Origin: Acidobacteriota bacterium
Lineage (GTDB): Bacteria > Acidobacteriota > Vicinamibacteria > Vicinamibacterales > CAVVIG01
Length of the DNA stretch: 44,262 nucleotides
Reading direction: 5' to 3'
NCBI GenBank assembly: GCA_003222535.1
Contig: QHWJ01000256.1
Location: 1-44,262 of the forward strand
Shown here: positions 12,016 to 23,825 of the stretch, piece by piece
Position numbering within the stretch: position 1 is the first letter of the stretch
Layout of the letters: every line of letters starts with the position of its first letter
Notes under the pieces: generated by a model
What the model saw: the letters and a program-made list of their open reading frames with translations, nothing else
Told to the model about the DNA's origin: nothing
Database searches by the model: none
Made by a program: the position numbers and the translations under genes

Positions 12016-12296
12016 CAGAAAAGAAATACGACGACATATTTGGCCACAGAGACACAAAGACACAGAGAACAACACGCTGCAGGGAGCGCGCTCGACGCGG
12101 CGCCGCGCAGCGGCGGGCGAGGCGTGCCAACCGCAAACGAACGACCACTGGAGGGTGGCTCGGTCGTTCGTTTGCGGTCGGCGCGCCTCACGGCGCGGCC
12201 TGCGGTGCAGGCCGCCCGCGTCGAGCGCCTCTGTGTCTCGGTGTCTCCGTGGCTTGTCCAAATCAATACGTCGCCGTAATTACGAGATTCTGTACT
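12016..12296 (-). repeat. Structured palindromic repeat, copy A (truncated at one end)
   Basis: About 281 bp closely similar to 22006-22282 in opposite orientation. Two halves are inverted copies of each other. Outer arms contain CCACAGAGACAC-type motifs. Inner arms at 12127-12146 and 12162-12181 pair over 19 of 20 positions. Two side hairpins lie between: GCGGCCTGC/GCAGGCCGC at 12195-12215 and CGCCGC/GCGGCG near 12101-12115. The end at 12265-12296 (AATACGTCGCCGTAATTACG...) matches the terminal repeat of copy B; the other terminus is missing here. It lies between divergent genes, in front of the secreted protein gene at 12484. Confidence 0.85.
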
Positions 12297-21700: not shown

Positions 21701-21984
21701 GGCTCAATCCGGCGGCGTTCGCCCAGCCGGCGCTGGGCACCTACGGAAACTCCGTACGCAACGCCTTTGATGGTCCGGGACGCAAGGTCGTCGATCTCTC
21801 GCTCGTGCGGTCGTTCCGGTTCCGCAACGGGCGGCACGTCGAGGCGCGCGTCGAGGCGTTCAACGCGTTCAACTGGTTCCTGCTGGACATCCCGAACACC
21901 ACACTCTCCAGCGCGACTTTCGGGCGCATCACATCGTCGGGCGACCCGCGCATCATGCAGTTCGCGGTGAAGTACGAATTCTGA
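18718..21984 (+). CDS. Oar-like TonB-dependent receptor with shortened N-domain
   Basis: Outer-membrane protein of 1088 residues with GGAGG upstream of the ATG and a signal peptide ending in TTTWAQA. The regulatory Ig-like domain starts normally (INGTVADSSGGILPGATVVV) but jumps straight to LSGFRTYVRTG. In the two other receptors of the window about 36 residues (the strands around D.TG.Y...L.PG.Y) lie between these motifs, so this copy carries an in-frame deletion. The plug keeps GRNVASLVLLAGG, LLDGAMHNNWYDG and VSVATKAGTNLFHGD. The barrel ends FAVKYEF, with the C-terminal phenylalanine needed for assembly. It is alone on its strand; structured repeat copy B begins 21 bp after the stop. Confidence 0.9.
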   Translation: MRHPIRLMVCVVVILLVSITTTWAQATAQINGTVADSSGGILPGATVVVLSGFRTYVRTGIVLQVNSNPVIPVTLQIGAIGETITVTSAAPLVETRNPAVGQVINNEQVQALPLEGRNVASLVLLAGGAVDTGNPSSRSLTQSRGIAVAGGQQFGVQYLLDGAMHNNWYDGVNLPLPFPDAMQEFSVETSSQNAQNGVKAGGTVSVATKAGTNLFHGDVFEFARHHRFNATAPFAAISATTGERTSDGLVRNQFGGVLGGPIVQNKIFFFGAYQGTHATQTPADIVTFIPTAAMLNGDFSTVASAQCRAQGNLTLPAAFGFVNNRIDPARLSPAAVRIARMLPTTNDPCGQIAYSRPTRPRERQPIARVDWQLDKSHSLFVRYMLSTTFWGPAFENANGNILAATLGGRDNTQHSLAIGDSMVLSNTIVNNVRLSVNRTSVVRTHSELFGPEDVGIKMFTYIPNYMNITTTGAFSINTGTETFSFYKPNTYSLSDDLTMVRGNHQYGFGGAMAVSDWKTESNIRSMGPFSFSGGVTGLPLADFLLGRVFEFREATPFRQDIKQPYFALYGQDTWRVSSSVTLNYGARWEPWFPQDSVDRAVYNFDVERMRAGTRSTVYPQAPAGLYYPGDPGFPGNSGMKTVWSNIAPRAGVSWDPKGDGRTSLRAGYGLTGDFVTGQFFFDSRSAPPFGLEQRLTGTLLDDPWGAVGRTNPYPISVGGADYPYSAALYPLFISMPYDIKTTRNHSWNVAFQRQVGDNMAFSTTYLGNHMVNMWGVVDGNPGVIPAGATPTGSCTLKLPTGGTQTFTDCSTASLDLRRELSQLNPAVGQYYGYLDWITDAGWQTYHGLLLSLQRRSASGITTSANYTVSACEGLISQGQAPLNVATGYMKPVSLINPPSDAETQAIFDEDKGRCGTWRKHILNLSASVETPQFTNTAARALASGWRLSGIFRANSGSPLTVTTGTDRALSGIQATTQRANQVLDNPYGDKTINNWLNPAAFAQPALGTYGNSVRNAFDGPGRKVVDLSLVRSFRFRNGRHVEARVEAFNAFNWFLLDIPNTTLSSATFGRITSSGDPRIMQFAVKYEF

Positions 21985-22005
21985 TCGGGAGAGAAGAGGG
22001 CCTAG

Positions 22006-22340
22006 AGTACAGAATCTCGTAATTACGGCGACGTATTGATTTGGACAAGCCACGGAGACACTGAGACACAGAGGCGCTCGACGCGGGCGGCCTGCACCGC
22101 AGGCCGCGCCGTGAGGCGCGCCAACCACAAACGAACGACCGGGCCACGGTCCAGTGGTCGTTCGTTTGCGGTTGGCACGCCTCACCCGCCGCTCGGCGGC
22201 GCCGCGTCGAGCGCGCTACCTGCAGCGTGTTCTTCTCCGTGTCTTTGTGTTCTCTGTGGCCAAGTATGTCGTTGTGTTTCTGAAATGGGGCACCAATCGC
22301 CGTCACTAAATACGTCGCCATAATTGTGAAATCGAGTACT
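22006..22340 (+). repeat. Structured palindromic repeat, copy B, with terminal inverted repeats
   Basis: A 335-bp element. Its 32-bp ends (22006-22037 and 22309-22340) are inverted repeats matching at 25 of 32 positions, sharing AGTAC at the tip and GGCGACGTATT at the inner edge. Inside is a long imperfect palindrome: inner arms 22121-22140 and 22156-22175 pair over 19 of 20; side hairpins are GCGGCCTGC/GCAGGCCGC at 22087-22107 and CCGCCG/CGGCGG near 22187-22200; outer arms carry CACGGAGACAC/GTGTCTTTGTG motifs. TAG flanks both ends, a possible 3-bp target duplication. It fills the gap between two convergent genes. No coding capacity. Confidence 0.85.
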
Positions 22341-22373
22341 TAGTCAAGGCGCGGCAACGGACGGGCTCAGGCA

Positions 22374-23825
22374 CTATGACCAAAGACCCATGACGGGCGT
22401 CCCTTTCACCAATTCGCGGGGTTGATTGAGGTGATTGCGGATCTCCATGTCCGGGTCGAGCCCCAGCGCGAAATAAACCGTCGCCAGCAAGTCCGCCGGA
22501 TGAACCGGCTTCTCTTTGGGCGAAGAAGCCGTCGCGTCGGATTCTCCATATTGCGATCCGCGCGCGATGCCGGCTCCCGCCACGACCGCGCTGTAGCAAT
22601 ACGGCCAGTGGTCGCGGCCGTCGGGAGAGTTGGAATTGCCCGACGTCGACACGCCCAACCTCGGACTCCGGCCGAATTCGCCCACTGCGACGACGAGCGT
22701 CTCCTTCAAGAGTCCGCGCTGGTCCAGGTCTTCGAGCAGCGCCGACAGGCCGCGGTCCAGCTTCGGACAATGCAGATTCTTCAAGGGCCGGAAGTTCGCC
22801 GCGTGCGTATCCCAGGCGCTGATCTCCGGATCGCCGTTGGCGACGGAAGGCCAGTTCACCTGTACGAACTTCGTGCCCGCCTCGATCAACCGGCGTGCCA
22901 TGAGCAGGCTCTGCCCGAACGTGTGCATGCCGTAGCGCTCGCGCATGTCGGGCGGTTCTTTCTCCAGGTCCATGGCGTCCCGCGCCTTGCCCGACAGCAC
23001 CAGATCGTAGGCCTTGCCGTAGTACTCGTCCACGGCGTAGTCCTTCAAGGCTTTCTGCAGGTCCGGCATTGAACCGTTGACGCCTTTCAGCAGCTCGAAG
23101 CGGTCCTTCAGGCGTTCCGGCGGAATGTCCTTGCGCAGCGACAGATCCTCCAGCTTCACCGGTTTGGCCGGGTCCTGATACATGCGATACGGATCATAGG
23201 CTTTGCCCAGGAACCCGGCGCTGCCGCCCTTGCCGATAATTCCGGACTCCTGCAACGGGCGCGGCAGTTCGACGAAGGGCAGCACCGGATCGGTCGGCGG
23301 CTTCAGCTTCGACACCTGACTTCCAGCCGTCGGAAAGTCGGCGGGAGAGGGCGGCTCGAGCTGGCCCGAGGGCGAAACCTTGTCGGGCGGATAACCGGTC
23401 AGCATCTGGTAGATCGCCGCAGTGTGGTTGAACAGGCCGTTCGGCGTATAGCTCATCGAACGAATCAACGTGGCCTTGTCCAGATGCTGCGCCATCATCG
23501 GCATGTGCTCGCCGATCCAGGTGCCGGGGATCCTGGTCTTGATGGGTTTGAACTCCCCGCGAATGTTCGACGGCGCATCGGGCTTGGGATCCCAGATATC
23601 GATGTGCGACGGCCCGCCCTGCAGGAAGATCATCACCACGCTCTTGGCCGACTCCCAGCCGCGCGCGCCGGCGTATTTGCTGGCCGCGCCAGCGTGGGCC
23701 TGGTCGCGCCAGAAGAAGAAGTGCGGAAGACTCAGGCCCATCATGCCGATGGAGCCGATGCGGAGCAGTTCGCGCCGGGTGGGTCCCTCGCAGTTGCAAC
23801 CGCGATGTCCGGGAAGATTCAGCAT
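22374..23825 (-). CDS. DUF1501 family exported protein
   Basis: Protein of 483 residues in the DUF1501 family, which belongs to the alkaline phosphatase/sulfatase superfamily. A Tat signal is evident (TRRELLRIGSIGMMGLSL). Family landmarks are VVMIFLQGGPSHIDIWDPKP, SMSYTPNGLFNHTAAIYQMLTG, WDTHAANF, VVAVGEFGRSPRLG and GRDHWPYCYSAVVAGAGI. The ATG at 23825 was chosen for an AGGA site just upstream and the conserved start MLNLPGHRGCNCEGPTRREL. DUF1501 genes almost always follow a DUF1549/DUF1553 gene, as here, with 10 nt between them. The pair is typical of Planctomycetota and Acidobacteriota and is linked to exported polysaccharide or cytochrome modules; the reaction is unknown. Confidence 0.93.
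   Translation of the reverse strand: MLNLPGHRGCNCEGPTRRELLRIGSIGMMGLSLPHFFFWRDQAHAGAASKYAGARGWESAKSVVMIFLQGGPSHIDIWDPKPDAPSNIRGEFKPIKTRIPGTWIGEHMPMMAQHLDKATLIRSMSYTPNGLFNHTAAIYQMLTGYPPDKVSPSGQLEPPSPADFPTAGSQVSKLKPPTDPVLPFVELPRPLQESGIIGKGGSAGFLGKAYDPYRMYQDPAKPVKLEDLSLRKDIPPERLKDRFELLKGVNGSMPDLQKALKDYAVDEYYGKAYDLVLSGKARDAMDLEKEPPDMRERYGMHTFGQSLLMARRLIEAGTKFVQVNWPSVANGDPEISAWDTHAANFRPLKNLHCPKLDRGLSALLEDLDQRGLLKETLVVAVGEFGRSPRLGVSTSGNSNSPDGRDHWPYCYSAVVAGAGIARGSQYGESDATASSPKEKPVHPADLLATVYFALGLDPDMEIRNHLNQPRELVKGTPVMGLWS

Follow-up and report, generated by a model that had tools for sequence, protein, structure and literature searches.

Among the described systems closest to the element reported here, REP/REPIN palindromes go with RAYT (TnpA-REP) enzymes, which belong to the Y1 HUH class, and the textbook target duplication of IS630 transposons is TA. 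Hjc cuts four-way junctions, and there are enzymes of the PD-(D/E)XK fold that resolve such junctions. In the sources searched, GxxExxY (NCBIfam TIGR04256, Pfam PF13366, PDDEXK_3) figures as a protein family only, without an assigned role, and no description of its mobility or of a link to repeats was found in the open-licence PMC literature. The end repeats reported below were not found described in the open-licence PMC literature either. The system presented here has in common with REP/REPIN-RAYT, in outline, palindromic repeats on both sides of a small gene and many dispersed gene-less palindromes, whereas the linked gene encodes a PD-(D/E)XK protein (PDDEXK_3) instead of a Y1 HUH enzyme, the ends are period-8 CCACNGAG repeats and a four-way junction of ~140 nt is present. 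Like IS630-type MITEs, the element is short, gene-less and present in many copies, with a flanking repeat at a TA-containing site and with inverted ends common to an element with HTH_29 and DDE_3 frames; it differs from them in flanks that agree as TWA (3 bp) and in carrying a large four-way-junction module. The window element may be a new variant of the MITE/REPIN kind, while the class of GxxExxY elements may be new in kind.

The window, a stretch of 44,262 nucleotides, is contig C450 of an 8.06-Mb acidobacterial draft genome with 450 contigs. The element, here at 22007-22339, occurs at 40 places of its own genome (G000) and consists of two nested layers, an outer MITE and an inner palindrome in which CCACGGAGACAC-type ends enclose a four-way junction. 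The original prediction described 32-bp inverted ends enclosing a nested palindrome with two perfect side hairpins and an inner stem of about 30 bp, and the sequence is as described (22006-22037 and 22309-22340, 32 nt, 78% complementary). It also called the fold a three-armed cruciform; the three arms are present, but with the outer stem counted the fold is a four-way junction. The features are as follows.

12022-12296, minus strand: second window copy, 94% identical over element bases 1-276, right MITE end missing, junction core 12088-12228 intact (genome search, detector)
22007-22037, plus strand: left terminal inverted repeat of the outer MITE, probably IS630-type, GTACAGAATCTCGTAATTACGGCGACGTATT (computed end complementarity, family ends)
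22038-22049, plus strand: spacer from the left MITE end to the inner module, GATTTGGACAAG (like junction in L031, L032 and L038)
22050-22073, plus strand: left end of the inner module, period-8 repeat CCACGGAGACACTGAGACACAGAG (a like repeat frames GxxExxY genes)
22074-22086, plus strand: outer stem of the four-way junction, 5' strand, pairing with 22202-22214 (13/13; pairing, detector, folding)
22087-22107, plus strand: larger side hairpin GCGGCCTGC-ACC-GCAGGCCGC, 9-bp arms (detector, folding)
22111-22140, plus strand: 5' arm of the inner stem, 30 bp, 28 paired, with the loop at 22141-22155 (15 nt; detector)
22156-22185, plus strand: 3' arm of the inner stem, two mismatches against the 5' arm (detector)
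22187-22201, plus strand: smaller side hairpin, 6-bp arms and 3-nt loop, the gene-side hairpin in L098, L101, L113 and L120 (detector, folding)
22202-22214, plus strand: outer stem, 3' strand (pairing, detector)
22215-22234, plus strand: spacer; in gene-bearing relatives the GxxExxY gene sits between this side of the junction and the module end (comparison with L101, L113 and L120)
22235-22259, minus strand: other end of the inner module, complement CCACAGAGAACACAAAGACACGGAG (sequence, alignment)
22260-22308, plus strand: right-hand internal part of the MITE (sequence, alignment)
22309-22339, minus strand: right terminal inverted repeat of the outer MITE (computed end complementarity, family ends)
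22340-22342, no strand: right flanking triplet TTA (family TWA within CTWAG); the left side, CTAGA, does not match (copy alignment)

Folded as single-stranded DNA, the 335-nt element reached z = -8.9, with none of 100 shuffles as stable, and its 141-nt core -72.9 kcal/mol (z = -9.9, 0 of 200 shuffles as stable). A thermodynamic search with loose settings for junctions near GxxExxY genes proved too permissive; its place was taken by a strict geometric detector, which requires the inner stem, two perfect short hairpins and the outer stem in order. In the 44-kb window this detector matched the two element copies only, and it gave no match in 132,786 shuffled bases.

Further copies in the genome, anticipated by the original prediction, were found at the 40 places mentioned, and additional diverged or truncated ones were recovered via the end pattern, which occurs at 69 sites in the own genome versus 1 for the reversed control. 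According to the detector, the full fold is retained in 26 of the 40 copies (L001-L030, L040-L049). The inner stem has been lost in L047 and L049, and in others (e.g. L040, L042, L044 and L046) it is gone along with a hairpin and one of the two outer-stem strands, a kind of loss that long palindromes are expected to suffer; the remaining detector-negative copies are truncated or cut by contig ends. L010 and L012 lie at contig ends with near-identical flanks around the element and represent a duplicated segment or an assembly duplicate. The aligned family ends read C-TWA-GTACAG...GAGTAC-TWA-G. Among the 19 copies with both ends, TNA is present on both sides in 15 and TWA in 11, all 11 of them concordant (7 TAA, 4 TTA), while eight, including the window copy, show no identical triplet; in four of these eight the flank is TNA at either end, but its middle base is C or G at one of them. 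The TWA flanks may reflect a 3-bp duplication or TA with a variable register. TAG, proposed earlier as the flank of both ends, is not the family triplet, which is TWA inside CTWAG, and since the window copy reads CTAGA on the left and TTAG on the right, its own duplication is not visible.

A wider pattern, CTWAGT-N9-CGTAATTACG, is present in 21 of 162 genomes of the order. From this search 30 loci were read (some fetched twice), 22 with paired ends and 8 with one end, and in 19 of the paired-end loci the ends are 76-189 bp apart, i.e. these are MITEs. One of the loci read, L146, is a 101-bp MITE with similar ends and without the inner module. A relative with transposase-type frames between ends of this kind, such as the original prediction had suggested looking for, is L127: 31 of 35 bases of its left end are identical to the family consensus, and the 1.29 kb between its ends hold HTH_29/HTH_23 and DDE_3 frames of the IS630 type (E 9.5e-10 for HTH_29, 5.3e-15 for DDE_3), broken from each other. 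In the own genome (450 contigs), the DDE_3 piece of L127 has one match, 29% identical, and matching ends were not seen beside it. Because of the paired-end MITEs, the frames of L127 and the simple element L146, the outer layer is best read, on sequence comparison, as a MITE of an IS630-type transposon. The view of a non-autonomous element moved by a transposase from elsewhere in the genome thus finds support in the outer layer (40 places, inverted ends, concordant TWA in 11 of 19 copies, IS630-type relative), but it missed that the inner three-armed part is a module of its own. A sister group of MITEs with CTWAGTG...AATTACG ends and an interior of ~143-170 bp was observed at L062, L063, L068, L126, L135 and L143 (G000, G060, G037 and G146), with 39 end matches in G146 alone.

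The inner three-armed part is judged to be separate from the MITE, since relatives have it without the outer ends, since its own ends recur at GxxExxY loci and since in four genera it adjoins a GxxExxY gene. Several relatives match only approximately positions 43-256 of the element. CCACAGAG-type ends plus junction without MITE ends were found in L033 (G016), L034 (G013) and L037 (G024), and a junction core between more diverged ends, also lacking the MITE ends, in L035 (G009). Twenty further places from G016, G024, G026 and G013 were divided into 14 detector-positive and 6 negative ones; in G016 the module is multi-copy without MITE ends, with 12 detector-positive cores. A new insertion or an empty site of the inner module was not seen, one orthologous site having been followed in a congener. 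At this site (G016:C83 versus G026:C77; L033, L238 and L240), the module is present in G026 but without bases 778-858 of the query, the inner stem; its remainder aligns at 84-87%. An empty site in G026 was rejected accordingly, the site being occupied by a module without inner stem. Several matches to the inner module each came from the genomes G024, G025 and G023 (drafts, 79-86% complete), and a search of these drafts for close relatives of the junction-linked GxxExxY gave none.

The terminal repeats of the inner module are those of gene-bearing copies, namely the CCAC-type ends of L092/L071, L101, L113 and L120. Such ends enclose a GxxExxY gene in the own genome (L071/L092) and in G016 (L113), G005 (L120) and G013 (L101). 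The pattern CCACNGAGACACNGAGACAC occurs at 169 sites in the own genome compared to 70 for its reversed control; the reversed pattern is itself similar to the repeat. The four-way junction is also that of gene-bearing copies (strict detector; four genera plus L100): a junction of like geometry starts 10 nt or less after the GxxExxY stop codon in L098 (G014), L101, L113 and L120, representing four genera, and in L100 (G017) the gene is located between two junction copies inside AACGGAG-type ends. With the strict detector a junction was recorded beside the gene at 5 of 35 family loci scanned, two of which were also folded, and was absent at the other 30. The gene-side hairpin of L098, L101, L113 and L120 is the smaller one, so that the window module, read on the minus strand, corresponds to the gene-bearing form minus its gene. 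At six loci, each from a different genome (L092, L098, L101, L113, L120 and L268 of G026), the GxxExxY gene lies directly behind one common upstream gene, presumably an N6-methylase gene as suggested by its GNPPW motif; the orthologues in G000 and G026 behind this gene are without a junction. As the four gene-junction adjacencies are at one orthologous site, they are not independent insertions and may represent one ancestral event. The flanking repeats of L157 and L158 are the same as those at L120 and L101. Two tandem arrangements were observed in the own genome. In L071:1757-2026 (G000:C76), the 3' end of GxxExxY and the right repeat form a unit found in three copies at 125-bp intervals, and L070:1521-1882 (G000:C19) consists of three head-to-tail units of ~144 bp, each a CCAC palindrome, beside a reading frame whose start we take to be transposase-like.

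With a profile of this GxxExxY clade, the best 80 of 566 confirmed loci were examined, a sample biased to near relatives of the query. The record titles of these 80 include Acidobacteria, Chloroflexi, Chlorobi, Nitrospira, Verrucomicrobia, Leptospiraceae, Bacteroidetes and Planctomycetes, as well as cyanobacterial genera, several groups of Proteobacteria, Methanoperedens and others. An inverted repeat around the gene exceeded the 95% control level at 70 of the 79 scorable loci among the best 80 and the control maximum at 52 (control, n = 137 spans), and the period-8 end motif was found on both sides of the gene at 63 of the 79 versus 0 of 280 control spans. The strict end motif was present on both sides at only 14 of 31 family GxxExxY loci, where other end types are CACGAAG, AACGGAG and GACACAAAGG. 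According to the detector the junction is absent at 77 of the best 80 loci; of the three matches, two seem to duplicate the loci L120 and L101, and the remaining one, L219 (Omnitrophota), is a weak, AT-rich hit. The degenerate end pattern has a median of 51 sites per genome (range 1-153) in 21 family genomes with the gene and of 2 (range 0-9) in 6 without it. The corresponding p = 0.0018 (Spearman 0.62 over 27 genomes) is a guide only, because the genomes are related, their completeness varies and the reversed control reaches up to 41 sites in G000.

In an alignment of 42 GxxExxY proteins, D65, E75 and K77 are invariant and E26 nearly so (L158 numbering). An AlphaFold model (pLDDT 96) and its structural matches support a PD-(D/E)XK nuclease fold, in agreement with the Pfam name. 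The best Foldseek matches among those listed were LHK-Exo and lambda exonuclease. Among the matches listed by VIA-align were SSO0001 (Z 9.9; 98 residues, 3.1 A), which we take to be a Cas4 protein, and Hjc (1gef, Z 7.4; 86 residues, 3.4 A), where a Z under 8 is weak and tells nothing about the substrate. GxxExxY is thus similar to Hjc-type Holliday-junction resolvases and to Cas4/lambda-type exonucleases in predicted fold only. By sequence, no relative with a solved structure was detected at E <=1 (query A1) or <=10 (query A3). A known defence protein was rejected as identity, with only weak likeness to Cas4 and RT-PDDEXK (E 0.0095 or worse). The phage search gave no match, and in the plasmid search seven records were matched, all below 60% identity.

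The reading favoured here, with a probability of roughly 0.6, is that the window element derives from a palindromic element of the GxxExxY type, has no gene and travels as a hitch-hiker in an IS630-type MITE, its folded junction being a putative nuclease substrate. It starts from the observed architecture, the synteny in four genera, the shared ends and the maintained pairing, together with the predicted PD-(D/E)XK fold. An IS630-type DDE transposase would mobilise the outer MITE in trans, with duplication of TWA at CTWAG targets. The inner layer, period-8 ends around a genetically encoded four-way junction, would be the derivative of a form which carried the GxxExxY PD-(D/E)XK gene between one end and the junction, as the gene-bearing relatives do. 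Once single-stranded during replication, repair or transcription, the inner module could fold into the junction, the GxxExxY nuclease could bind and cut the junction or its ends, and repair could then copy the palindrome elsewhere or restore it, by which GxxExxY would move the module. By analogy, the junction may be the substrate of the GxxExxY nuclease, an idea that is attractive since some enzymes of this fold resolve four-way junctions. The junction fold lies beside a nuclease gene which in many cases has matching inverted repeats on either side, and this hints at a so far undescribed kind of mobile element. A wider generalization is tentative and is given somewhat less than even odds: GxxExxY genes would form a widespread undescribed class of mobile elements in bacteria and some archaea, with a lone PD-(D/E)XK nuclease, nested period-8 inverted repeats and gene-less palindromes spread through the host; one lineage of Acidobacteria would have evolved an encoded four-way junction as putative substrate or hand-hold of the nuclease, and one derivative would be carried further by an IS630-type MITE. 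GxxExxY, found in records of many phyla, is here associated with a defined repeat architecture and, in one lineage, with a four-way junction that comes ready-made; this provides the concrete hypothesis of a structure-specific nuclease together with its encoded substrate and, if true, would explain the dispersed CCACNGAGACACNGAG palindromes in these genomes.

The structure of the module is kept while its sequence diverges. An alignment of 14 sequences, drawn from seven genomes, has 95.7% of its cells paired, a value favoured by taking the structure from the window sequence and by nearly all rows being detector-positive; with the partner slid by 1-3 columns, 29-45% were paired. As to the compensatory changes in the stems for which the original prediction had proposed to look, 18 of the 56 pairs in this alignment are changed on both sides versus 7.4 in shuffles. 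For the inner stems of 27 elements, pairing between own arms was 0.905 and cross-pairing 0.498 (0.889 and 0.568 for the elements of G016 alone); pairing between own arms is partly built in, because the detector demands a stem, and the comparison of the two values indicates that the stems are different sequences. Selection for a structure read by a protein is one explanation of this pattern. The other, to which we assign a minor but appreciable share of the probability, is neutral quasi-palindrome correction, in which template switching during replication copies arm onto arm. Pairing that is retained though the sequences differ even within one genome is consistent with such a correction, as is the orthologous pair L255/L260 from two congeners (82.8% identity over 1,335 columns), where five stem positions were changed in both arms and two in one arm. 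The stem mismatches outside the own genome, 11 G.T versus 13 A.C, show no strand preference, in keeping with constraint or correction acting on the DNA; the own-genome copies, related by common descent, have 29 G.T versus 12 A.C. Neutral correction alone leaves unexplained the narrow range of inner stem length (28-33 bp for all but one of 27 elements, within the detector limits), the side hairpins, which are perfect and have 3-nt loops in all but one of those listed by the detector, and the orientation of the smaller hairpin towards the gene in L098, L101, L113 and L120.

A less probable explanation, considered unlikely, is that only the MITE layer is mobile, the palindrome being passive cargo picked up once and its likeness to GxxExxY loci an old shared repeat without a functional tie. 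The copies with terminal inverted repeats have one kind of MITE-module boundary in common, simple MITEs such as L146 exist without the module, and most GxxExxY loci are without a junction, all of which is in line with a single capture. In contrast, G016 has multiple copies of the module that lack MITE ends, the module is found in this form also in G013, G024 and G009, the end motif flanks the gene on both sides at 63 of the 79 scorable loci from the best 80 of 566 with none in the controls, and the number of repeats tracks the GxxExxY gene.

It is regarded as very unlikely that what the MITE has spread is a structured RNA or a two-way transcription terminator. The core is very stable and follows directly after the gene in the four gene-bearing loci, and the window copy is located between convergent reading frames; however, the open reading frames flanking the 17 assignable copies out of 26 are convergent in 5, divergent in 5 and tandem in 7 cases, and a terminator was rejected for this missing convergent bias. 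A known RNA was rejected as well, as none of 4227 Rfam families reached its gathering score in the region 21900-22450, where all matches were sub-threshold. A G.U strand bias, as expected for RNA, is inconsistent between the other genomes (11 versus 13) and the own-genome copies (29 versus 12, shared ancestry). A rolling-circle/HUH or AAV-like element with the folded end as replication origin, to which the original prediction had likened the element, is suggested by shape only and can practically be dismissed on anatomy, since the fold is internal (22074-22214), the ends are plain inverted repeats, and these outer ends, like their TWA flanks, agree with a DDE transposon that has a relative of the IS630 type. 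The genes found between shared ends were those for DDE_3 and PDDEXK_3 proteins.
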